From NCBI RefSeq assembly GCF_000473085.1, contig NZ_AXBA01000038.1, positions 1 through 47,776 on the forward strand: a stretch of 47,776 bases of DNA. Reading direction: 5' to 3'. Source of the DNA: Azorhizobium doebereinerae UFLA1-100. GTDB lineage: Bacteria; Pseudomonadota; Alphaproteobacteria; Rhizobiales; Xanthobacteraceae. This document shows, one piece after another, positions 36,805-47,776 of the stretch. The translations under genes were made by a program, and so were the position numbers. Numbering within the stretch: position 1 is the stretch's first letter; the number at the start of each line of letters is the position of its first letter. The notes under the pieces were generated by a model. The model saw nothing but the letters and a program-made list of their open reading frames with translations, searched no databases and was not told the DNA's origin.

Positions 36805-37575
36805 TCACTCCGCCGCTTCGGGCAGGCGGGTCAGGCCGAGCCGGCGGCGGGCCCAGAGGTGGAGGTCGTGCCAGGGATGGCGGTCGCGGGTGCGGAAGGT
36901 GCGCCCGGTGCCCGCCTGCGGCCGGCGCGGCAGCGGCCGGCCCTGTTCCAGCCGGGCGAGATGTTCGGCCAGCCGGTCGATGGCCATCTTCTCGGCCCGG
37001 CAATAGAGGCGCTCGGCATTATCGTCCGCATGGAGGGGCGGCACCACCAGTTCGATGATGTCGCCGGTGTCGATGCCCGCGTCGACGAAATGGATGGTCG
37101 AGCCGATGCGGTCGAAGCGTTCCTCATAGAGGGCGAAGAAGAAGCAGTGGTTGCCGCGATAGAACGGCAGGTAGCCGCCGTGGATGTTGATGGCGCAACG
37201 GCCGGCCTCCAGCACCGGCGGCTTCAGGATGCTGGTGCCCATCACCACCGTGACGTCGGGCCGGCTGGCGCGCAGCAGGTCCGCCACCGCCGGGGCGTTG
37301 GCCGTCTCCGTCTCCAGCCACACCGCACCCGGCACGGGGCGCGGGCCGCCGCCGCCGAAATAGGCGCGGCGGTAGCGGTTGAGCCCGGTCAGGTCGCGCC
37401 GCAGCCGGTGATAGCGCGCCCACAGCCAGTCGCGATAGCGGCCGCGCCGGCGCAGGCGCCGGGTCTGGGCGTCGCCCGGCTCCACCACCACGGCGGCGAT
37501 GTCGAAGCGCTCGGCCAGCCGCGCCACCAGATAGCCGTGGTGGGCGTCGTCGGAGCAGAGGATGGCGATCCTCAT
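36805..37575 (-). CDS. Formyltransferase-family protein in the NRPS operon
   Basis: A 256-residue protein with the formyltransferase catalytic triad layout: Asn and His in AINIHGGYLPFYRGN and Asp in HFVDAGIDTGDIIEL. PDVTVVMGTSILKPPVLEAG precedes it. The N terminus MRIAILCSDDAHHGYLVARL resembles GART/Fmt Rossmann starts. It is shorter than tRNA formyltransferases and lacks their C-terminal domain, so it probably transfers formyl from N10-formyl-THF to a small amine. The ATGA overlap with the lyase gene makes it the last gene of the NRPS operon. It could formylate a diamino acid or the peptide N terminus; no N-hydroxylase is in the window, so a hydroxamate product is not supported. Confidence 0.85.
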   Translation of the reverse strand: MRIAILCSDDAHHGYLVARLAERFDIAAVVVEPGDAQTRRLRRRGRYRDWLWARYHRLRRDLTGLNRYRRAYFGGGGPRPVPGAVWLETETANAPAVADLLRASRPDVTVVMGTSILKPPVLEAGRCAINIHGGYLPFYRGNHCFFFALYEERFDRIGSTIHFVDAGIDTGDIIELVVPPLHADDNAERLYCRAEKMAIDRLAEHLARLEQGRPLPRRPQAGTGRTFRTRDRHPWHDLHLWARRRLGLTRLPEAAE

Positions 37576-39056
37576 CGCCGGGCCTCGCCAATGGCATGGT
37601 CGGCGGCGTCCAGTTCCTGCGCCGCGTGGCGCCAGCGGCGGTCGATCTCCTGTCCGCGCCCGACCAGGGTCCGCCAGCCCGCCTGCTCGGCCGCGATCGC
37701 CGCCCGGACGCTGGTAGCGGCGGGCCCGCCGCCGAAGCGCGTCGCCGCCACCACGGCGTCGAGCGAGACGGCATCCGCATCGCTTTCCAGGCGGTCGGCG
37801 AAGCTCTCCGTCACGGTCTCGTGCAGCCTCTCGCGGCCGCCGGCGGCCAGCGCTTCGGCAATGGCGGCGCCCACCTGGTGATGAGCCTCGCGGAACGGCA
37901 CGCCGGCCCGCGCCAGCTGGTTGGCGAGTTCGGTGGCGGCGGTGAAGCCGGCGGTGGCGCTGCGGCGCATGGCGGCGGGCGCGGGCCGCGCGAAGGCGAT
38001 CACCAGCCGGGACAGCGTCACCGCATCGGTGATCGCCCGCAGTGCCTCCCAGATCACGCCGACCCCCTCGGTATTGGCGGCGATGGTGTTGGAGAACGGC
38101 TTGGCGTGGCTGGCGGCGGCGGCCGTCACGAAGGCGCCCAGCGGCTTCGCGGCGAGGCCCTGCACATGCTCCAGCAGGAAGGGATTGCGCTTCTGCGGCA
38201 TCATCGAGCTGGAACCGACCAGGCCGTCCGGCAGCCGCAGGAAGCCGAATTCCGGGGTGGACCAGACGAGCAAGTCGGTCGCCATGCGGCTCAGCGTGAC
38301 GCCGAGGATGCCGGCAGCCGAGAGCAGGCGCAGCGCGCAGTCCCGGCTGGCCACGGCGTCGATGGAATGGCCGACCGGATCGGTGAAGCCGAGCAGGCGG
38401 GCGGTGAGGCGCGGGTCGATGGGAAAGCTGGTGCCGCCCACCGCCCCGGCGCCGAGCGGGCAGTGGTCGAGGTCCGGCAGCACGCCGTCGAGCAGCGCGC
38501 GGGCATCGCGCCCGACGGCGCAGGCGATGCCCGCCAGCCAATGGCCGAAGGTGACGGGCAGGGCGGGCTGGAAATGGGTATAGGCCGGCATCACCACGTC
38601 GAGGTGCCGGCGGGCGCGGGACAGCAGCACCGCCTCCAGGCGCAGCAGCTCGCGCAGCAGCCGGCGGGCAGGCACCCGCAGCTTGAGGCGGAACAGCGTC
38701 GCGCCGAGGTCGTTGCGCGAGCGCCCGGTGTGGAGCGCGCCGCCGGTCTCCCCGCCCAGCCGCTCGATGAGCAGGGACTCATAGAGCAGGTACAATCCGC
38801 GCGGCGCCGGCCGGCCGCGCAGGGAGGCGAAATTCTCCACCCGCAGCGCCGCGATCAGCGCCAACAGCGGCGCGGCCCGTTCCGGCGGCAGGAGGCCCCG
38901 GCGGCACAGCATCACCACATGGGCGCGGTCGATCTCAGTCATCAGCCACAGGTCGCTGTCGATGGCGGCATCCGCCGTGTCGCCGAACACGATGTGCCGG
39001 GCGCCGGGGCAGAGGCCGTGGGCGATGCGGCCGGTGTTCTCCAGGGCGCGGGTCAC
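37572..39056 (-). CDS. Argininosuccinate-lyase homologue (fumarase/aspartase superfamily)
   Basis: A 494-residue enzyme, slightly longer than ArgH (about 460). All three superfamily signatures are present: GGALHTGRSRNDLGATLFRL (ArgH C1), MPAYTHFQPALPVTFGHWL (C2, with the His-Thr-containing loop), and the mobile-loop signature VGSSSMMPQKRNPFLLEHV. Such enzymes eliminate fumarate from an N-succinyl compound. In this operon it could release fumarate from an aspartate adduct to leave a new amino group. The GTG start overlaps the ATP-grasp stop by 4 bp and its stop overlaps the next ATG. Location and sequence deviations argue against it being the housekeeping argH. Confidence 0.9.
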   Translation of the reverse strand: MTRALENTGRIAHGLCPGARHIVFGDTADAAIDSDLWLMTEIDRAHVVMLCRRGLLPPERAAPLLALIAALRVENFASLRGRPAPRGLYLLYESLLIERLGGETGGALHTGRSRNDLGATLFRLKLRVPARRLLRELLRLEAVLLSRARRHLDVVMPAYTHFQPALPVTFGHWLAGIACAVGRDARALLDGVLPDLDHCPLGAGAVGGTSFPIDPRLTARLLGFTDPVGHSIDAVASRDCALRLLSAAGILGVTLSRMATDLLVWSTPEFGFLRLPDGLVGSSSMMPQKRNPFLLEHVQGLAAKPLGAFVTAAAASHAKPFSNTIAANTEGVGVIWEALRAITDAVTLSRLVIAFARPAPAAMRRSATAGFTAATELANQLARAGVPFREAHHQVGAAIAEALAAGGRERLHETVTESFADRLESDADAVSLDAVVAATRFGGGPAATSVRAAIAAEQAGWRTLVGRGQEIDRRWRHAAQELDAADHAIGEARR

Positions 39057-40267
39057 CGGGCGTCCCCGGCGATGGTCAGGTCCAGCGCGGCCCGGCCCCG
39101 CTCGGCGGCGGCCGCCGCCATGTCCTCGCTGTCGCCGCAGGCGATGACGTGACCGGCGCGGTCGCGGAAATCGCCGGACAGGGTGATGGCCTCGCCCACG
39201 CGGCGGTAAAGGGCGACATCGCACACCCCGGCCACGCTCCGTGCTGCCTCCATGCCGGTGATGTCCGCCAGCCGCCCGGCGACGCGGGGCAGGACGAAGC
39301 GGATGGCGGCATGGCGCTGAAAGCTGGGCGCGAGGTTCGCCGGCCGGCCGGTGGCGAGGCGGATGGCGGCGTCGATCAGATCGATGCCGGTGGCGAGCCG
39401 CACCAACTCGGGAATGAAGCCGCCGGCGAGGCGCGGATTGACCTCGATGACGACCGGCCCGGCCGGCGTCAGGCGCAGCTCGATATGGACGGCGCCCCAG
39501 CGCAGATCGAGCGCCGCCAGCGTCCGCACCGCCGCCACCGCGATCCGCCGCGCGTCCTCGGGCGCCAAGGCGGCGGGAAAGTCGTGGCCGGTCTCCACGA
39601 ACAGCGGCGGGGGCGAGACGTGCTTGCGGGTGATCCCGACCACGGCGCCGGCCAGGGTCTCGACGGAGAATTCCGGCGCGTCGACGAAGCGCTCCACCAG
39701 CACCTGCGCGCCGGTGGCGCCGGCCGGGGCGGCGTCGAACAGGGTGCGTGCATGGGCCGCCACCTGGCCTATATCCCGGCACAGGCGCACGCCGACGCTG
39801 CCGCTGCCGGCCACCGGCTTCACCACCACCGGCCATCCCAGCGCCTCCGCGGCGGCCACCGCCTCGGCAACGTCCGACGCGGGCGCGAAGCGCGGCTGGC
39901 CGATGCCGGCCTCGGCCAGCCGGCGGCGCTGCGACAGCTTGTTCCGGCAGCGCGCGATGGCCTCCGCCGGCGGGGCGGGCAAGCCCAGCTCGCGGGCGAT
40001 GGCGGCGGCGGTGCCCACCCAATATTCCGACGACGAGGTGACGCCGGCCACGGCGCGCTCCGAGGCCAGGGACCGGCACAGCGCCGGCAGGCCCGCCCCG
40101 TCATCGGCGGCCATACGCACATGCTCGACGCCGTCTTCCGCCAGATAGGGATAGCGGCTCGCGTCGGCGCAGATCATCAGCGGGTGGAGGCCGTGCGCCC
40201 GCGCCATGCGGGCGAACAGCCGGCCGGTGCCGCTGGTATTGCTCTCGATGAACAGCAGGGTCTGCAT
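39053..40267 (-). CDS. ATP-grasp ligase
   Basis: A 404-residue protein with the ATP-grasp architecture: N-terminal Rossmann-like domain (LLFIESNTSGTGRLFARMAR), a central domain starting [20 protein letters not shown], the ATP-binding VVVKPVAGSGSVGVRL, the hinge QVLVERFVDAPEFSVETL and the Mg-binding EVNPRLAGGFIPELVRLATG. It joins a carboxylate, via acyl phosphate, to an amine or thiol. Related free-standing enzymes ligate amino acids or make peptide bonds in natural-product clusters. It lies 2 bp after the cysteine-synthase-fold gene and overlaps the lyase gene, suggesting joint action, for example aspartate attachment followed by fumarate release. Substrates unknown. Confidence 0.9.
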   Translation of the reverse strand: MQTLLFIESNTSGTGRLFARMARAHGLHPLMICADASRYPYLAEDGVEHVRMAADDGAGLPALCRSLASERAVAGVTSSSEYWVGTAAAIARELGLPAPPAEAIARCRNKLSQRRRLAEAGIGQPRFAPASDVAEAVAAAEALGWPVVVKPVAGSGSVGVRLCRDIGQVAAHARTLFDAAPAGATGAQVLVERFVDAPEFSVETLAGAVVGITRKHVSPPPLFVETGHDFPAALAPEDARRIAVAAVRTLAALDLRWGAVHIELRLTPAGPVVIEVNPRLAGGFIPELVRLATGIDLIDAAIRLATGRPANLAPSFQRHAAIRFVLPRVAGRLADITGMEAARSVAGVCDVALYRRVGEAITLSGDFRDRAGHVIACGDSEDMAAAAAERGRAALDLTIAGDAR

Positions 40268-40269
40268 GG

Positions 40270-41115
40270 TCAGGCCCCACCCGAAAGCTGCGGCACGTCA
40301 AATTGCCCCACCGGCCGGAAGCCGCTGGTCGGCAGAGGGAAGGCCGCCGGTTCGGGACAGCGGACCGGCAGCCAGGGCCGGTCCACCAGCAGCAGCATGA
40401 TCCGCGCCTGCGGGTGCCGGCGGGCATGGCGGTCGGCCACCGCATAGCCGGCGGCGCTGCCGGCGCCGGGCGCGAGCCCCTTGTCGATCAGCAGCTTCCA
40501 GCCGGCGGCGGCGGCCTCGTCCGGGTCGCAGCAGTGGATTTCGTCGCACGGCTCCGGCGCGGCTGGAGGAGGCCCGCCGCCGCGCACGTCCACGCCGATG
40601 ACGCGCAAGGCGGGATTGACGTAGCGCAGGAAGCGGCCGAGCCCGGACAGGGCATAGGCCGCCTCCAGCGGGCCGATCAGGCAGTCGATATGGCCGACGC
40701 CCTCGGACATGATCTCGGCCGCTTCGGCGAAGGCCAGCCCTTCGCCCAGCCGCCGGGCCAGCGCGCCGGGCGTGGCGCCGGGCGTGGCGCCGGCCGCCGC
40801 CGGCTGGACAGAGGCGCCGAGATAGGCCAGCCGGCGTTCCGTCAGCGGATCGTAGCCCCGGGCCGAGACGGCGATGAAGCCGTGGCCGCGCGCGCGGCAG
40901 GCCAGCGCCAGCGCCAGCGCCATCTGCGCGTCGGTGGTCTCCACCGTGAGGGTCAGCGCCTCGCCCTCCGCCTCGGCGGCGCGCACCAGGTCGATCGCCG
41001 GCAGCATCTGCAGCAGGCTGCCGAACAACGCGGCATACAGCTCGCCGTGCAGGTGCAGGATTCGCGGCTGGGCGAGCGCCGCATGGACCGAGGGGAGAGG
41101 ATCGCGGATGCTCAC
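40270..41115 (-). CDS. Cysteine-synthase-fold protein lacking PLP-binding residues (probable pseudoenzyme)
   Basis: A 281-residue protein that aligns along its length with CysK-type fold-II PLP enzymes: MLPAIDLVRAAEAEGEALTL, ALACRARGHGFIAVSARGYD, TERRLAYLGASV, YVNPALRVIGVDVRGGG and a C-terminal LLLVDRP strand. The key sites are changed, however. The position of the Schiff-base Lys is Gln (SLLQML), the TSGNTG loop reads TTDAQM, and the Gly-rich phosphate loop is gone (CLIGPLEAAYALSG). By eye it cannot hold PLP in the standard way. The GTG start overlaps the kinase stop by 4 bp. It may be a regulatory or scaffold partner of an active paralogue outside the window, or may have acquired a new activity. 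Confidence 0.75.
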   Translation of the reverse strand: MSIRDPLPSVHAALAQPRILHLHGELYAALFGSLLQMLPAIDLVRAAEAEGEALTLTVETTDAQMALALALACRARGHGFIAVSARGYDPLTERRLAYLGASVQPAAAGATPGATPGALARRLGEGLAFAEAAEIMSEGVGHIDCLIGPLEAAYALSGLGRFLRYVNPALRVIGVDVRGGGPPPAAPEPCDEIHCCDPDEAAAAGWKLLIDKGLAPGAGSAAGYAVADRHARRHPQARIMLLLVDRPWLPVRCPEPAAFPLPTSGFRPVGQFDVPQLSGGA

Positions 41116-42059
41116 CCGCCCCTCCGCGCGTCGTCGCCCGCGGTGCGGAAGCACCACGCCTCGGTGATGCCGAGATCGGCGAGGCCGTGGCGGGCGGCAT
41201 CGACGCGGCGATGCAGGTCCGGGCTGTGCGGATCGAACAGGATGCCGGCGATGATGCCGCTGTGGGCCACCTGAAGGCCCACCCCGCCGGCCTCGGCGGC
41301 GATGCGCTCCAGGCCCGCCAGGTGCCGGCGCGGCAGGAAGCGCTGGTTGATGCGGGCGCTGGCCGAGGCGGCGCGGCCGAGCAGCGCGCTGTCGCCGGTG
41401 AACGCCGCCCGCCGCAGCAGCCCGACCACGGGCCGGAACGCCCGCGTCTCCACCTCGTCATAGCTCGCCGGCGGATGGGAGAGGGTGTCCACCCCTTCGT
41501 CCTCCTCCGAGGTGCGGAAGCCGAGCACCGTCAGCGGCGGCAGTCCGCCGGGCAGCGTCTCGATGACATGCCCGCCGCGATGGGCGAACACCATGGCGCA
41601 ATCGTCGAACATGATCGGATCGGAGGCGGTCTCCGCCGCCACCGCGAGGCGGGCGATGCGCTCCGCCGGCAGCCGCTCGCCGAAGGCGTCGCAGACCGCG
41701 CGCACCGTCGCCGTGACGTCCGCCGTGGAGGAGCCGAGGCCCCAGCGCAGGGGGATGTTGCTGTCGATGGACAGCGCGCCGCCCCAGCTGTCCTGCCCCA
41801 GTTCCTTCAGCGTCAGCGCGGCGGCCTCAAGCGCCTTCGCCTTGCCGGCGGGGACGGAGCGCAGCGGCGCCTCGGGCTCCGGGGCGAACGTCGCCGTGGC
41901 GTGGAAGACCTCGCACGGCAGGGTGATGAGGCCGCGGCAGAAACCGCCGTCGCGGGTGGGAAACATGCCCTGGACGATCTCGCCATGGTGGCCGATCGCC
42001 CGCCCCGTGCCCTTCGCCCGGGCCGGCCGCCATTGCAGCGTTCGTGGCTGAGTGTTCAT
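41112..42059 (-). CDS. GHMP kinase, PduX-like amino-acid (L-threonine/serine) kinase
   Basis: A 315-residue GHMP-fold kinase. GHHGEIVQGMF near residue 24 matches the GELVQG-type opening of PduX L-threonine kinases. The phosphate-binding motif PLRWGLGSSTADVTATVRA lies near residue 105, and GVGLQVAHSGIIAGILFDPH near residue 265 matches the AHSG motif of that family. PduX makes O-phospho-L-threonine for cobalamin synthesis, but no cobalamin genes are here. Instead it is embedded between a thioesterase and a cysteine-synthase-like gene of an NRPS operon, with 4-bp overlaps on both sides. I infer activation of the hydroxyl of Thr or Ser for beta-replacement during diamino-acid synthesis. Confidence 0.85.
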   Translation of the reverse strand: MNTQPRTLQWRPARAKGTGRAIGHHGEIVQGMFPTRDGGFCRGLITLPCEVFHATATFAPEPEAPLRSVPAGKAKALEAAALTLKELGQDSWGGALSIDSNIPLRWGLGSSTADVTATVRAVCDAFGERLPAERIARLAVAAETASDPIMFDDCAMVFAHRGGHVIETLPGGLPPLTVLGFRTSEEDEGVDTLSHPPASYDEVETRAFRPVVGLLRRAAFTGDSALLGRAASASARINQRFLPRRHLAGLERIAAEAGGVGLQVAHSGIIAGILFDPHSPDLHRRVDAARHGLADLGITEAWCFRTAGDDARRGG

Positions 42060-42856
42060 GATCTTAAGGCCCAGTGTGACGGCGCGCGCAGCGATGCCCC
42101 GAGGTCGCCGGCCAGCAGCGGGGCAAGGTGCGCGGCGAAGTCATGGATGAAGAAATGGTCGCCGGGGACCGTGTGGTGGCGGAAGCGTCCGGTGGTGTGC
42201 CGCCGCCACGCGGCCATGTCCTCGGGCGGGACGAAATCGTCGTCGCGCCCGCCGAAGCAGGTGATCGGCAGCGGCAGGGGCGGCAGGCCCTCCGGGCACG
42301 CCCACGCCTCGCACAGGCGGACGTCGGCACGCAGCGCCGGGATCAGCAGCGCGGTGAGGTCGGGCGCCGCCTCCAGCATGCCGGAGATGCGGCCGAGCCG
42401 GCCCAGCTCGGCCAGGAAGGCGTCGTCGTCGAGCCCGCCCAGCGGGCCGAGGCGGGCCGGCAGATGGGGCGCGCGGAAGGCCGAGACGAACAGGTGGAGC
42501 GGGCCCGGGCCGCCGCGCGCCCGCAAACGATGGGCCAAGGCGAAGGCGAGCAGCGCCCCCATGCTGTGGCCGAACAGGGCATAAGGCGCGCCGGCCAGCG
42601 GCGCCACGGCGGCCTCCAGCTGCGTGACCATGGCGTCGAGATCGTCGATGGCCGGCTCGCCGATGCGGTCCTGCCGGCCCGGCAGCTGGATGGCGCAGAC
42701 CTCGGTGCCCGGCGGCAGGTGGTTGCGCCAGCCGTTGAACAGCGACGCCCCGCCGCCGCCATAGGGCAGGCAGAACAGGCGCACGGCGGGCGCGCCCTCG
42801 GCCCGCTGGCGGCGGACCCAGCGCGTCGCATCGGCCGCTGGCGGGAGGGCGTTCAC
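42056..42856 (-). CDS. Type II thioesterase (GrsT family)
   Basis: A 266-residue alpha/beta hydrolase with the GrsT pattern: RLFCLPYGGGGASLFNGWRN, VCAIQLPGRQDRIGEPA, nucleophile elbow ALFGHSMGAL, Asp region CFGGRDDDFVPP and His in PGDHFFIHD. These enzymes normally clear misloaded or stalled acyl groups from carrier domains. Because the last NRPS in the operon ends at a carrier domain without a fused thioesterase, this protein might also release the product. The GTG start overlaps the NRPS stop by 4 bp and its own stop overlaps the kinase start. Confidence 0.93.
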   Translation of the reverse strand: MNALPPAADATRWVRRQRAEGAPAVRLFCLPYGGGGASLFNGWRNHLPPGTEVCAIQLPGRQDRIGEPAIDDLDAMVTQLEAAVAPLAGAPYALFGHSMGALLAFALAHRLRARGGPGPLHLFVSAFRAPHLPARLGPLGGLDDDAFLAELGRLGRISGMLEAAPDLTALLIPALRADVRLCEAWACPEGLPPLPLPITCFGGRDDDFVPPEDMAAWRRHTTGRFRHHTVPGDHFFIHDFAAHLAPLLAGDLGASLRAPSHWALRS

Positions 42857-45800
42857 GGTGTGCCTCCCGCCGTCACATCGCCGTCGGGCAGGGCCTCGAT
42901 CTCGTCCAGCAGGGTCGCGGATGCCTCTTCCTCGTCCAGCAAGGCGGAGACGACGGCATCCGCCAGCCCGGCGATGGTCGGCCGCTCGAACAGCAGGCGC
43001 AGCGGCAGGGAGATGTTGAGCGTGGACTTGATGCGGCTCATCACCCGCGTGGCCATCAGCGAATGGCCGCCCAGGTGGAAGAAATCGTCAGTGACGCCGA
43101 CGCGAGCGATGCCCAGCACCTCGCCCCAGATGCCGGCCAGCAGGTCCTCCACCGGCGTGCGGGGGGCGAGGAAGACGCCCTCCCGCTCCGATCCGGCGCC
43201 TTCGCCGCGCGGCAGGGCGCGGCGGTCGATCTTGCCGCTGGCGGTGGTGGGCAGGCGCTCCACCGCGATCAGGTCTGCCGGCATCATATGCTCCGGCAGC
43301 ATCCGCCGGGCGTGGTTGCGCACGGCCTCCAGCGACAGGCCGGGCGCGGCCGCGACCACATAGGCAGCGAGGCGGGCGGCCCCGGTCTCGCCGGTCCACA
43401 CCGTGGCCGCCGCCTCCGCCACGCCGGGGCAGGCCGCCAGCACCGCCTCGATCTCGCCGAGCTCCACCCGGAAGCCGCGGATCTTCACTTGTCCATCGCG
43501 GCGGCCGAGGAAGGTCAGCCGCCCGTCCGGCAGCCAGCGGGCGATGTCGCCGGTGCGGTACATGCGCCCGCCCGCCGCGCCCGCGAACGGATCGGGCAGG
43601 AAGCGCTCGGCGGTCAGTTCGGGCGCGCCGAGGTAGCCCTGCGCGACGCAGGCGCCGCCGAGATGGAGTTCGCCGGGAACGCCGATGGGCTGGGGCTCGC
43701 CCCGTTCGTCCAGCACATAGGCCCGGCAATTGGCGATGGGCCGCCCGATGGGCGGCAGCGCCGGCCAGCCGGCGGGGTCACCGGCCAGCACCTCCTCCGT
43801 CACCACATGGGTCTCGGTGGGGCCGTACTGGTTGCGCAGCCGGGCGACGCCCGCCCGGCGCACCAGCTCGGCCACGGCGGGGGTGATCTGCAATTGCTCA
43901 CCGGCGGTGACGATCTCCCGCAGGGCGCCGGGCTCGTGCCAGTCCGCCGCCGTCGCCGCCAGCGACTGGAGGGCGGCGAAGGGCAGGAACAGCCGGGCGA
44001 TTTCCGCGCTGCGGATGCGCGCGCCGAGCCGCTCCATGTCCCGCCGCTCGTCTTCCGTCGGCAGCACCAGCGTGCCCCCGTTGGCCAAAGTGGAGAGGAT
44101 CTCCTGCGCCGACACGTCGAAATTCAGCGAGGCGAATTGCAGGGTCCGGGCCGGGGCCTCGCGGGCGATCTGCCAGGCCACCAGGTTCGCCAGCGGGCGA
44201 TGCGGCATGGCCACGCCCTTGGGCACGCCGGTGGAGCCGGAGGTATAGAGCAGATAGGCCAGGTCGCCGGGCGCGACCGCGCTGTCCGGAGCCGTCGCGG
44301 GCTGTCCGGCGATGGCCTGCGCCGCCGCGCCGAGATCCAGCACGCCGAGCCCCTCGGGCCGCGCCAATGCCGCCAAAGCGGGCGCGCTGCCGACCACCAG
44401 GGCCAGCTCCGCATGGGCGAGGACGCGGGCGAGACGATCCGGCGGATAGGCCGGGTCGAGCGGCACGTAGCAGCCGCCCGCCTTCAGCACCGCCAACACG
44501 GCGACCACCATGTCCGGCGTGCGCTCCAGGCACAGGCCGATGCGGGCGCGGTCGCCGATGCCGATGGCGCGCAGGTGGTGGGCCAGCCGGTTGGCGGCGG
44601 CATCCAGCTGGCCGTAGGTGAGCGCGCCGGCATCGCTCTCCACGGCCGGGGCATCGGGCGCCCTGCGGGCGGCCCGCTCCACCAGATGGTGGGCGCACAA
44701 GCCCGGCTCCAGATCGGCCCGCGTGTCGTTGAACGCCTCCACCACCAGCCGCCTCTCCTCGGCGGAGAGGAAGGACACGCGCGACACCGGCGTGTCCGGC
44801 TGGGCGACGAGCGCGGCCAGCAGGGCGCGGAAATTGTCCGCCATGCGGGCGATGGAAGCCGCCGCGAACAGGTCGGTGCTGTATTCGAACACGGCGCGCA
44901 GGCCCTCGCCCTCTTCCACCAGGAACAGGGAGAGGTCGAACTTGGCGGTGCCCGTGCCGGTCTCCACTTCGCCGCCGCCGGGGCCGGGCGCGTCCGCCCG
45001 CGTGTGGTTCTGCAACACCATCATCACCTGGAACAGCGGATGATGCCCGAGGCTGCGCTCGGGCTGGATCTCCTCCACCAGCCGCTCGAAGGGGAGATCC
45101 TGGTGGGCATAGGCGGCAAGGGTGGTGTCGCGGACGCGGTCGACGACCTCGGCGAAGCTGGGGTCATCGGCCAGCGACGTGCGCAGGACGAGGGTGTTGA
45201 CGAAGAAGCCGATGAGCGGCTCGACCTCGACGCGTGTGCGGTTGGCGATGGGTGTGCCGACGACGATGTCGTCCTGTCCGCAATAGCGCAGGAGGAGGAC
45301 CTTGAAGGCGGCGAGCAGGGTCATGAACAAGGTGGCGCCGCGCTGCTGGCCGAGGGTGCGCAGGCGCTCGGCCGTCGCCGCCGGAACGGCGAACTGGTAC
45401 AGGTCGCCGCGCAGGCTCTGCATCGGCGGCCGCGGGTGGTCGGTGGGCAGCGCCAGCACCGGCGGGCAGCCGGCCAGCCGCTCCCGCCAGAAGTCCAGCA
45501 GGGCTTCGATCCTGTTGCTGCTCATCCAGTCGCGCTGCCATTCGGCGAAGTCGGCATACTGGATCGGCAGCTCCGGCAAAGGCGAGGGCTTGCCGCGCGC
45601 GAAGGCGGCGTAGATGGCCTCCACCTCATGCACCAGATTGCCCACCGACCAGCCGTCGCAGACGATGTGGTGCATGTTGAGCAGAAGCACATACTCGTGA
45701 GGCCCGAGCCGCAGCAGCCTGGCGCGGAACAGCGGGCCGTGGGCGAGGTCGAACGGCGCATGCGCCTCGATCCGGGCGAGGCGGTCGGCCTCGCGGCGGC

Positions 45801-46116
45801 GGCTTGAGGCCTCCAGCTCCGACAGGTCGACCAGCGGCAGCGCCACGTGCCGGGAGGCGGCGATGATCTGGCATGGCCGGCCGCCCACGGTGCGGAAGGT
45901 GGTGCGCAGGGTCTCGTGGCGGCGCACGATCTCGTTGAGCGTCCGCTCCAGGGCGGGGATGTCGAGCGGCGCGCTCCAGCTCATGTGCTGGTGCACATTG
46001 TAGATGGGATTGCCGGGATGCAGCTGGTCGAGGAACCACAGCCGCTCCTGCGCGAAGGACATGTCGAACTGGTAGTAGGTCTCCGATGGCGGCGGGGCCG
46101 AGAGCAGGGCGGTCAT
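42853..46116 (-). CDS. Nonribosomal peptide synthetase, C-A-PCP module
   Basis: A 1087-residue single-module NRPS. The condensation domain (about 16-440) has the catalytic MHHIVCDGWS near residue 150. The adenylation domain (about 460-965) has LLYTSGSTGVPKGV near 624, NQYGPTETH, YRTGDIARW and TASGKIDRRAL. The carrier domain holds its phosphopantetheine Ser in FFHLGGHSLMATR near 1016. The protein then ends without thioesterase, reductase or terminal condensation domain. Reading specificity positions by eye gives D-V-Q-F-V-A-Q-V-V, closest to proline-type codes (DVQLIAHVV), so a cyclic or secondary amino acid is a low-confidence guess. It starts 1 bp after the preceding NRPS stop. Only one module is present, so it extends what the upstream protein loads. 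Confidence 0.95.
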   Translation of the reverse strand: MTALLSAPPPSETYYQFDMSFAQERLWFLDQLHPGNPIYNVHQHMSWSAPLDIPALERTLNEIVRRHETLRTTFRTVGGRPCQIIAASRHVALPLVDLSELEASSRRREADRLARIEAHAPFDLAHGPLFRARLLRLGPHEYVLLLNMHHIVCDGWSVGNLVHEVEAIYAAFARGKPSPLPELPIQYADFAEWQRDWMSSNRIEALLDFWRERLAGCPPVLALPTDHPRPPMQSLRGDLYQFAVPAATAERLRTLGQQRGATLFMTLLAAFKVLLLRYCGQDDIVVGTPIANRTRVEVEPLIGFFVNTLVLRTSLADDPSFAEVVDRVRDTTLAAYAHQDLPFERLVEEIQPERSLGHHPLFQVMMVLQNHTRADAPGPGGGEVETGTGTAKFDLSLFLVEEGEGLRAVFEYSTDLFAAASIARMADNFRALLAALVAQPDTPVSRVSFLSAEERRLVVEAFNDTRADLEPGLCAHHLVERAARRAPDAPAVESDAGALTYGQLDAAANRLAHHLRAIGIGDRARIGLCLERTPDMVVAVLAVLKAGGCYVPLDPAYPPDRLARVLAHAELALVVGSAPALAALARPEGLGVLDLGAAAQAIAGQPATAPDSAVAPGDLAYLLYTSGSTGVPKGVAMPHRPLANLVAWQIAREAPARTLQFASLNFDVSAQEILSTLANGGTLVLPTEDERRDMERLGARIRSAEIARLFLPFAALQSLAATAADWHEPGALREIVTAGEQLQITPAVAELVRRAGVARLRNQYGPTETHVVTEEVLAGDPAGWPALPPIGRPIANCRAYVLDERGEPQPIGVPGELHLGGACVAQGYLGAPELTAERFLPDPFAGAAGGRMYRTGDIARWLPDGRLTFLGRRDGQVKIRGFRVELGEIEAVLAACPGVAEAAATVWTGETGAARLAAYVVAAAPGLSLEAVRNHARRMLPEHMMPADLIAVERLPTTASGKIDRRALPRGEGAGSEREGVFLAPRTPVEDLLAGIWGEVLGIARVGVTDDFFHLGGHSLMATRVMSRIKSTLNISLPLRLLFERPTIAGLADAVVSALLDEEEASATLLDEIEALPDGDVTAGGTP

Positions 46117-46117
46117 G

Positions 46118-47776
46118 TCAATCCTCCAGCGCCGCGGGCAGGGGCGCGCTGCGGGCCTCGCGCCGGCTCGCCACCAGCGCCGGACCGGCGGTGGCGCCGG
46201 AGGCGCGGACCTCTTCCACCGCCTTGGCGAGCTGGGCGATGGTCGGGCATTCGAACACCAGGCGCAGCGGCAGCTCCACGTCGAGCGCCGCACGCAGGCG
46301 CGAGACCACGCGGGTCGCCAGCAGCGAATGCCCGCCGAGGTCGAAGAAGTCGTCCGCGATGCCGATCCGCCGGGCGCCCAGCAGTTCGGCCCAGATGGCC
46401 GCCAATTCCCGTTCCACCGGCGTGGACGGGGCCACATAGGCGGCGCGCGCGCCGTCCAGAACTTCGTCCGGGGCGGGCAGCGCCTTGCGGTCCACCTTGC
46501 CGTTGGCGGTGAGCGGCAGCGCCTCCACCGCCACGAAGGCGGCCGGGATCATGAAATCCGGCAGCGTCCGCCGCACCAGGTCGCGCAAGGCGTCGAACGG
46601 GGCATCCGGGCCGGCGGGCACCACATAGGCGACGAGGCGCTTGTCGCCGCCCGGCACGGGCCATGCCACCACGGCCGCCTGCCGCACGGCGGGATGGGCC
46701 TGGAGCACGCTCTCGATCTCCGCAGGCTCGACGCGGAAGCCGCGGATCTTGACCTGGAGATCAGCACGCCCGAGAAAATCGAGCGTGCCGTCGGGCAGGA
46801 TGCGGCAACGGTCGCCGGTGGCATAGAGCCGCGCGCCGGGATGGAAGGGATCGGCGACGAAACGCTCGGCGGTCAGTTCCGGCCGGCCCAGATAGCCCAG
46901 GGCCACCCCGCCGCCGCCCACATAAAGCTGCCCCGGCACGCCGACGGGGACCAATTGCATGGCGGCATCCAGCACCAGCATGCGCACATTGGCCAGCGGC
47001 CGGCCGATGGACAAGGGCCGGTCCGCCGGCGGCGGGGCGTCCAGCGCCAGGGTGGAGCAGAAGGTGGTGGTCTCGGTCGGGCCGTAGACATGCAGCAGGC
47101 GCCGCGGCGGCCCTGCCAGCAGGCCGCGCCGGACCAGGGCGGGATCGACCACGTCGCCGCCGACCAGCAGCAGCTTCAGGCTGCCGTAGACGTCCGGCAC
47201 GGCGGTCACCGCCTGCGCGAACAGAGCGGCGGTCTGGTAGAGCACATCGATGCGCGCCTCCCGCAGCCGGGCCTTGAGCGCGGGGGGATCGATGACGGTC
47301 TCTTTGGCGAGGCCGACGAGGCAGGCGCCGGAGGCCAGCGCCCCCCACACCTCATAGGTCATGGCGTCGAACATGGGGTTGGAGGCCTGCGCCACCCGCA
47401 CCCCGGCACCGAGGGGAAAATCCCCCATGGCATCCACCAGCCACACCACGTTGCGATGCTCGACGGCGACGCCCTTTGGTGTTCCGGTCGATCCGGATGT
47501 GTAGAGCACATAGGCGAGGGCATCTGTCGGGAGGTCGATGTCGAGGGGCGCGGGATCGAGGGCGGCGGCGGCGGCGCGGCAGGCGTCGAGGGGGAGGACG
47601 GCGCAGCCCTCGGGCACGGCGAGGGCCTCGGGCAGGGGATGGTCCGTGATGAGCAGAGCGGCGGCGCTGTCGGCGAGCATGAAGGCGGAGCGCTCGGCGG
47701 GATAGGCGGGATCGAGCGGCACATAGGCGCCGCCGGCCTTGAGGATGGCGAGCAGCACCTCCACCATCGCCGCGCC
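46118..47776 (-). CDS. Nonribosomal peptide synthetase, A-PCP (5' part beyond right edge)
   Basis: The visible 552 residues start inside an adenylation domain (VLLAILKAGGAYVPLDPAYP) and continue through VLYTSGSTGTPKGVAVEHRN, VYGPTETTTFC, YATGDRCRI and TANGKVDRKAL to a carrier domain with FFDLGGHSLLATR. The frame stays open to the edge, so a condensation or other domain upstream is likely. Specificity residues read by eye are D-A-Y-Y-L-G-V-T-F, most like codes for small aliphatic residues such as Val (DAFWIGGTF); low confidence. Codon use changes inside the gene: 47470-47776 favours CTC, ACA and GGA, while the rest favours CTG, hinting at domain exchange. It is upstream in the operon of the C-A-PCP protein. 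Confidence 0.93.
   Translation of the reverse strand, partial: GAAMVEVLLAILKAGGAYVPLDPAYPAERSAFMLADSAAALLITDHPLPEALAVPEGCAVLPLDACRAAAAALDPAPLDIDLPTDALAYVLYTSGSTGTPKGVAVEHRNVVWLVDAMGDFPLGAGVRVAQASNPMFDAMTYEVWGALASGACLVGLAKETVIDPPALKARLREARIDVLYQTAALFAQAVTAVPDVYGSLKLLLVGGDVVDPALVRRGLLAGPPRRLLHVYGPTETTTFCSTLALDAPPPADRPLSIGRPLANVRMLVLDAAMQLVPVGVPGQLYVGGGGVALGYLGRPELTAERFVADPFHPGARLYATGDRCRILPDGTLDFLGRADLQVKIRGFRVEPAEIESVLQAHPAVRQAAVVAWPVPGGDKRLVAYVVPAGPDAPFDALRDLVRRTLPDFMIPAAFVAVEALPLTANGKVDRKALPAPDEVLDGARAAYVAPSTPVERELAAIWAELLGARRIGIADDFFDLGGHSLLATRVVSRLRAALDVELPLRLVFECPTIAQLAKAVEEVRASGATAGPALVASRREARSAPLPAALED

Follow-up and report, generated by a model that had tools for sequence, protein, structure and literature searches.

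A variant diamino-acid cassette with a degenerate CysK and a formyltransferase in a peptide synthetase operon of Azorhizobium doebereinerae

Diamino acids in described clusters

Friulimicin carries 2,3-diaminobutyrate (DABA) at positions 2 and 9, and laspartomycin carries 2,3-diaminopropionate (Dap) at position 2 as well as allo-threonine (PMC7690785). DabABC are credited with DABA synthesis for both in a 2014 review that calls the biosynthesis of L-DABA 'not yet fully understood' (PMC4052310), and a friulimicin-like cluster of Kitasatospora setae is listed with dabA, dabB and dabC (PMC11117518); judging from gene order, dabC would be the ATP-grasp gene discussed below. Here we describe an operon at the end of a 47,776-base stretch (the window; C33:1–47776) of the 5.8-Mb genome of Azorhizobium doebereinerae UFLA1-100, in which nonribosomal peptide synthetase (NRPS) genes are followed by a kinase, a CysK-fold protein, an ATP-grasp ligase, an ArgH-like lyase and a formyltransferase. 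The accessory genes form a diamino-acid cassette of a known type in a variant arrangement: the CysK in the usual slot is dead, a live one is displaced, and a formyltransferase is present. We put the probability at about 0.58 that the operon joins a short NRPS peptide to a 2,3-diamino acid (most likely DABA, made from threonine) that is formylated by itself or as a dipeptide. New here are the dead CysK of the window, the cassette-linked formyltransferase and adenylation codes unlike the one linked to DABA in lipopeptide loci.

The operon and its probable continuation on a second contig

An earlier note on the window, made from the letters alone, had named eight minus-strand genes joined by 4-bp overlaps or 1–2-bp gaps. 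The open reading frame (ORF) list and Pfam recover all eight with the named domains, and the spacing is read directly at the junctions: GTGA or ATGA overlaps at 42853–42856, 42056–42059, 41112–41115, 39053–39056 and 37572–37575, and gaps of 1–2 bases at 46116/46118 and 40267/40270. Along the minus strand, part of an NRPS gene with adenylation (A) and peptidyl carrier protein (PCP) domains (A2-PCP2; 46118–47776), whose 5' part lies beyond the window, is followed by an NRPS gene that also has a condensation (C) domain (C3-A3-PCP3; 42853–46116) and by a freestanding thioesterase (42056–42856; PF00975, E=7e-48). The next gene (41112–42059) encodes a GHMP kinase of the cassette family, a probable L-threonine kinase by Pfam, alignment, its HHGE, GSSTAD and HSG motifs and the contrast between DABA and Dap loci given below. 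It precedes the CysK-fold protein P0004 (40270–41115), an ATP-grasp ligase with a LAL_C2 domain (39053–40267), an ArgH-superfamily lyase (37572–39056) and the formyltransferase (36805–37575), the last four also assigned by Pfam or alignment.

Contig C33 is 48,772 bases long and stops 996 bases past the window, inside a C domain (C33:47999–48769); ambiguous single bases lie just beyond the window end. Extension past 47776 therefore lengthened the operon and did not reach its start, which is not on C33, and the gene that had been called A-PCP does hold these domains but is as a whole a truncated C-A-PCP. A second contig, C47 (19,640 bases), carries on its plus strand an intact CysK (CysK1, read from 14291), a small protein and an NRPS gene (C-A-PCP) that the end of the contig interrupts at most about 40 residues into the next C domain. 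The small protein (L041:15388–15945) had no match in an NCBIfam search.

The C1 domain of C47 begins with sequence that recurs, at 97% identity, in the final 108 bases of the same contig, and the end of C33 aligns (77%) to C1 from 466 bases further on. Only the hits on C33 and C47, among nine C-domain hits in the genome, lie at contig ends. The best A-domain matches outside these two contigs reach at most 239.5 bits (37–42% identity) and fall within other long frames, and the short contig C60 has one A-domain match (31% identity, 159 bits) without a C-domain hit. Because the C domains are complementary at the contig ends, and A-domain matches elsewhere are weaker or otherwise placed, the two contigs probably form one operon, in the order CysK1, the small protein without a match, C-A-PCP-C-A-PCP, C-A-PCP, thioesterase, kinase, degenerate CysK, ATP-grasp, lyase and formyltransferase. 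In full, the operon likely encodes three NRPS modules and a freestanding thioesterase; the count of only two modules is right within the window and wrong beyond it, as C47 adds one more C-A-PCP and the beginning of the C domain after it.

One dead and one live CysK

We aligned P0004 with nine relatives and then with 98 CysK-family sequences (tblastn matches of at least 70 bits, 99 loci). Glutamine stands at the position of the lysine that binds pyridoxal phosphate (PLP), which is kept in all 98; TDAQ stands where 92 of the 98 have TSGT or SSGT; PLEAAYA replaces the phosphate loop, which reads PVGSGGS in 62 sequences and nearly so in most of the rest; and residues of the FGQ-type loop are missing. 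P0004 thus lacks the PLP-binding lysine of the cysteine synthase and SbnA family, and the cassette slot that it occupies is without a competent CysK-family enzyme. With the lysine and the active-site loops lost, no PLP chemistry is possible, and the suggestion that this protein performs the β-replacement has to be given up. Its fold was correctly named: an AlphaFold model built from 57 sequences has a mean predicted local distance difference test score of 82.2, and the 50 matches listed by Foldseek are all of the cysteine-synthase/cystathionine-β-synthase type (query template modelling score 0.61–0.69). P0004 is a CysK-fold pseudoenzyme. A frameshift as the cause of the motif loss was rejected because, for each of four relatives, the match to the window stays in a single frame over 269–308 alignment columns.

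In a quick CysK tree (42 rows, with long branches), P0004 falls within a set of 26 cassette-type rows (Shimodaira–Hasegawa-like approximate likelihood ratio test, 84), with an end branch 4.02 long where the median is 0.33. CysK1 lies outside this set and is nearest by path to a row from Sinorhizobium fredii (L187). That plasmid cluster (L187:3623–12424) has a CysK 50% identical to CysK1, a kinase homologue, a second ATP-grasp and an aldolase, and also carries a fused ATP-grasp–lyase.

The long end branch and the lost active-site elements are what would be expected if the cassette were decaying, with the dead CysK breaking the pathway and C47 belonging to a different cluster. We judge decay decidedly unlikely: the kinase, ATP-grasp and lyase keep their checked motifs, the reading frame of P0004 is intact, with a GC content at third codon positions of 0.90 against 0.89–0.93 in neighbouring genes, and C47, where a broken C domain is complementary to the one at the end of C33, has an intact CysK. 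CysK1 keeps its active-site elements in the alignment and would be the competent CysK of the cluster, reached through the proposed C47–C33 join. P0004 may be its non-catalytic partner in a putative heteromer, and the operon offers a natural case of one dead and one live CysK.

The cassette in other genomes

A scan with the ATP-grasp alignment found 271 relatives, and locus counts refer to the best 80 of them. The kinase occurs in 71 of these loci, CysK in 78 and the lyase in 76; all four accessory genes are present in 67, and 43 of the 67 have the gene order of the window, an arrangement that is therefore not due to chance. Contig ends account for some absences: the sequence stops short of the kinase slot in L140 and of the CysK slot in L118. 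Outside the lipopeptide type described below, the kinase is missing from L096, L114, L134 and L143, and another member is absent from L091, L102 and L147. The window itself has the GHMP kinase, the ATP-grasp and a cassette-clade lyase in one operon, as Dab-type cassettes do.

Gene fusions of two kinds link the ATP-grasp with the steps of CysK and of the lyase. Of 91 ATP-grasp ORFs, 5 are fused to the lyase (ATP-grasp::lyase; L082, L098, L125, L187 and L219; model NF002563), and L220 has CysK::ATP-grasp. The earlier note had suggested looking for conserved gene order in relatives, which is seen, and did not recognise the gene combination; with the ATP-grasp a regular cassette member, that combination is not unprecedented. 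The L220 fusion is part of a second cassette of Streptomyces samsunensis (L220:4115–10395), with a C domain, lyase, kinase and the CysK::ATP-grasp fusion in one frame.

Searches of plasmid records with the kinase and lyase, which are independent of the ATP-grasp, gave 88 and 291 matching records, from the top of which we opened 9 and 2. All four genes are present in 7 of these 11 (L074–L079, and S. fredii L187 with the fused ATP-grasp–lyase), and 4 have the kinase and CysK only (L185, L186, L188 and L189). A CysK-family gene is next to the kinase in 9 of the 9 opened kinase-matching records, and the association between the two families that had been claimed is upheld; an exception, L218, has a weaker kinase homologue followed by a threonine-synthase-like gene. 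The kinase as a plain cobalamin gene was rejected on context alone, that is, on its NRPS and cassette neighbours, in a comparison without PduX sequences. The product of PduX is given as free phosphothreonine (PMC9700786).

Several kinase–CysK pairs have other neighbours. Three (L042:7291–9320, L043:3384–5434 and L185:5959–7934) lie near tripartite tricarboxylate transporter genes with no ATP-grasp or lyase nearby, and there the product must differ or another donor be used. Two from Streptomycetaceae (L184:4030–10609, by eye, and L188:2092–9991, annotated) stand in a row with an iron-type ATP-binding cassette (ABC) importer, a small methyltransferase and a DUF364-type protein, and look like a candidate metallophore set. 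On Mesorhizobium plasmid pMLb (L186:5950–11252), the pair is beside annotated threonine synthase and acyl-homoserine-lactone synthase genes.

The lyase was placed in a tree with 33 of 85 lyase matches (L220, L075 and L090 were left out). The window lyase and these representative cassette lyases split from six housekeeping ArgH proteins with 100/100 support; this rules out a housekeeping ArgH, in line with the earlier note. Within the cassette clade, the position of the window lyase has no support (62/34). It keeps its catalytic motifs, and the genome has another ArgH-type lyase at C61:134491–135747.

For the ATP-grasp, the best-matching solved structure of its profile is the L-amino acid ligase BL00235. 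We found no mechanism for it in the literature, including passages of PMC2922099, PMC12954748, PMC8941995, PMC6804068 and PMC7987185. A PurC/PurB-like role of ATP-grasp and lyase, in forming the carboxamide of Asn1 of friulimicin, was rejected because amphomycin has Asp1 (PMC9113097) and yet the Streptomyces canus locus retains the ATP-grasp.

Kinase and marker genes in lipopeptide loci

Amphomycin-type loci give the kinase a context. S. canus DSM 40017, which we take to be the same strain as ATCC 12237, has within 21 kb (L129) a CysK, a lyase, an ATP-grasp, an A-PCP-thioesterase gene, a kinase, a glutamate mutase and a fatty-acyl-AMP-ligase-like gene; the thioesterase match is weak (41 bits), and its serine-hydrolase motif and the ligase-like gene were recognized by eye. 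The gene content agrees with the published amphomycin cluster of S. canus ATCC 12237 (PMC9113097). Four other CysK stretches of S. canus (L180–L183) have no lyase, ATP-grasp or kinase matches above 50 bits.

The A-domain code DIWQST[AS]DDK occurs in 21 loci (20 with DIWQSTADDK and one with DIWQSTSDDK). Nine of these show a close homologue of the S. canus acyl-AMP-ligase-like gene (at least 867 bits) in the fetched stretch. We took glutamate mutase as a marker of the friulimicin/amphomycin type, searching for it locally at all 21 loci and genome-wide for 18 (all except L079, L118 and L140). Mutase and kinase are both present in five of the nine (L105, L119, L129, L142 and L148) and both absent from four (L120, L149, L150 and L159); in three of the latter genomes the best kinase-profile match is at most 25 bits. 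These four may well be makers of Dap-type peptides. One of them, S. samsunensis (L149), is presumably close to S. malaysiensis. The latter is listed as a glycinocin type in PMC9113097. The kinase thereby gains a testable place, with the marker in five of five loci and absent without it in four of four comparable loci, and these few cases support its reading as a threonine kinase.

The same contrast bears on whether the diamino acid is instead Dap made from O-phosphoserine, with the kinase acting on another hydroxy amino acid. CysK1 has SbnA, a diaminopropionate protein, as its best NCBIfam match and CmnB, which serves a Dap-containing peptide, as its best Protein Data Bank match; the SbnA match is, however, far under the cut-off (200.6 against 349.95 bits), and the window operon keeps the kinase that the four presumed Dap-type loci lack. 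A Dap product is unlikely on this evidence.

Formyltransferase and adenylation codes

Full-length relatives of the formyltransferase (52–53% identity) lie directly after the ATP-grasp in Pilimelia terevasa (L128) and Goodfellowiella coeruleoviolacea (L146); the 21 kb fetched for these loci contain no A or C domain hit. A formyltransferase is present in these 2 of the 80 loci; among ten actinobacterial cassette genomes, matches above 50 bits are found in the same two only, and a search of 72,556 plasmid records gave no place covering 80% of the gene. The usual N, H and D residues look kept. Because its homologues follow cassettes without an NRPS hit in the fetched flanks, the formyltransferase probably acts on the product of the cassette; in those cassettes the formylated substrate should be a small molecule. 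Beyond the formyltransferase (window:32694–36791), we recognized by eye in the ORF list a branched-chain-type ABC permease and binding protein on the minus strand, followed by a GntR-type regulator and a short-chain dehydrogenase on the plus strand.

Specificity codes were obtained by alignment. The A1 code (on C47), DAFVIAAIWK, resembles the one for Phe in gramicidin synthetase; the cassette-linked A domains nearest to A1 are 44–46% identical, one with the code DACVVAAICK. In the table of PMC9113097, A3 (DVQFVAQVVK) is identical to a Pro code and A2 (DAYYLGVTFK), which is Val/Ile-like, is similar to Val codes. No A-PCP-thioesterase protein with the code DIWQST[AS]DDK is found in the operon. 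Incorporation of DABA by these modules is not indicated and is unproven, because none of the three A domains bears that code. Formyl capping and ATP-grasp ligation are possible ways round the missing code.

The cassette product could also bypass the A domains, the ATP-grasp making a (formylated) diamino-acid dipeptide that leaves or is handed on alone, and the NRPS peptide being made beside it or joined later. This reading is possible, if doubtful. It draws on the three unmatched codes, on the amino acid ligase structure found for the ATP-grasp, on the formyltransferase-bearing cassettes without NRPS hits and on the 24 of 80 fetched stretches that lack an A or C hit, some of them short contigs or cut by contig ends. 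The overlaps that bind NRPS, thioesterase and cassette genes into one tight operon speak against it, as do the NRPS domains in the other 56 stretches; the supposed co-conservation with NRPS genes is thus seen in these 56 and not in the 24.

Proposed pathway

Gene content and order, motif loss, conservation and fusions are observed; each reaction of the route that we favour, to DABA from threonine, is inferred, as are its product and the joining of the contigs. The kinase would convert threonine to O-phospho-L-threonine. CysK1, from C47 rather than the copy in the window, would replace the phosphate with the amino group of aspartate to give N-succinyl-DABA, and the ArgH-like lyase would expel fumarate and free the amine; aspartate as the donor, with loss of fumarate, is suggested by the family of the lyase. 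The ATP-grasp, an amino-acid-ligase relative, would form an amide bond at a step next to those of CysK1 and the lyase, and the formyltransferase would cap an amine of its product. The NRPS is predicted to add hydrophobic or aromatic-type, Val/Ile-type and Pro residues, and the thioesterase to release the product. In a more specific version, the aspartate amine would arrive under a bulky N-succinyl mask, a traceless protecting group that keeps the new amine from reacting while the ATP-grasp couples the masked diamino acid to another acid or amine; the lyase would then unmask it with loss of fumarate, and the window CysK would be a non-catalytic heteromer subunit alongside CysK1. This version is rather unlikely; an ATP-grasp acting between CysK and lyase would fit both kinds of fusion.

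The idea of a DABA-from-threonine set in a small formylated or ligated peptide gains from the kinase–CysK link and the lyase distinct from ArgH, and loses by the dead CysK and the A codes. Several further observations weigh against the favoured route. The join of C47 to C33 is drawn from the contig ends. No orthologue of P0004 was seen: 36 of 297 order-level genomes match at E ≤ 0.001, the best match outside its own genome is 33.3 bits and the two matches opened are intact CysKs. With the ATP-grasp as the query of the scan, its own presence in 80 of 80 loci is a given, and kinase–CysK pairs occur without nearby ATP-grasp or lyase hits (L042, L043, L185, L186, L188 and L189). The second cassette of S. 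samsunensis (L149), on another contig, includes a cassette-type kinase (218 bits), and seven further DIWQST loci have the kinase with no mutase anywhere in the genome. Other sources of the amine have been published: pacidamycin DABA is described as coming from threonine and ammonia (PMC10714638), and the mureidomycin amine as freed by a deaminase (PMC4052310). Both gausemycin products are given with 2,3-diaminobutyrate, although one gausemycin cluster is reported without cysteine synthase and argininosuccinate lyase genes and another with both (PMC12471526).

Comparison with known systems

The SbnA–SbnB diaminopropionate pathway resembles the operon in its SbnA-like CysK1; by Pfam, an SbnB-type gene is not among the eight window genes, the extent of the search, and a lyase route is proposed instead. 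In the NF002563 (PRK02186) fusion, as in S. fredii L187, the N-terminal part is homologous to the window ATP-grasp (376.8 bits) and the C-terminal part to the lyase (436.5 bits), whereas the window genes are separate and each scores under the whole-protein cut-off of 625. The Azospirillum plasmid cassettes (L074 and L075) share the order kinase-CysK-ATP-grasp-(transporter)-ArgH and are 50–53% identical in kinase, ATP-grasp and lyase; unlike the window, they have an intact CysK, a DMT transporter and no NRPS gene within the fetched 29 kb. P. terevasa and G. coeruleoviolacea have kinase, CysK, lyase, ATP-grasp and formyltransferase in a row, but there the lyase precedes the ATP-grasp, CysK keeps its lysine and NRPS domain hits are absent. 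The friulimicin/amphomycin DABA cassette (dabA, dabB, dabC and kinase; L129) likewise places CysK, ArgH, ATP-grasp and GHMP kinase beside an NRPS. Compared with it, the window operon has another gene order, no DIWQST-type A domain and, among the genes read, no fatty-acyl-AMP ligase; its slot CysK is dead with the live one apart, and it adds a formyltransferase.

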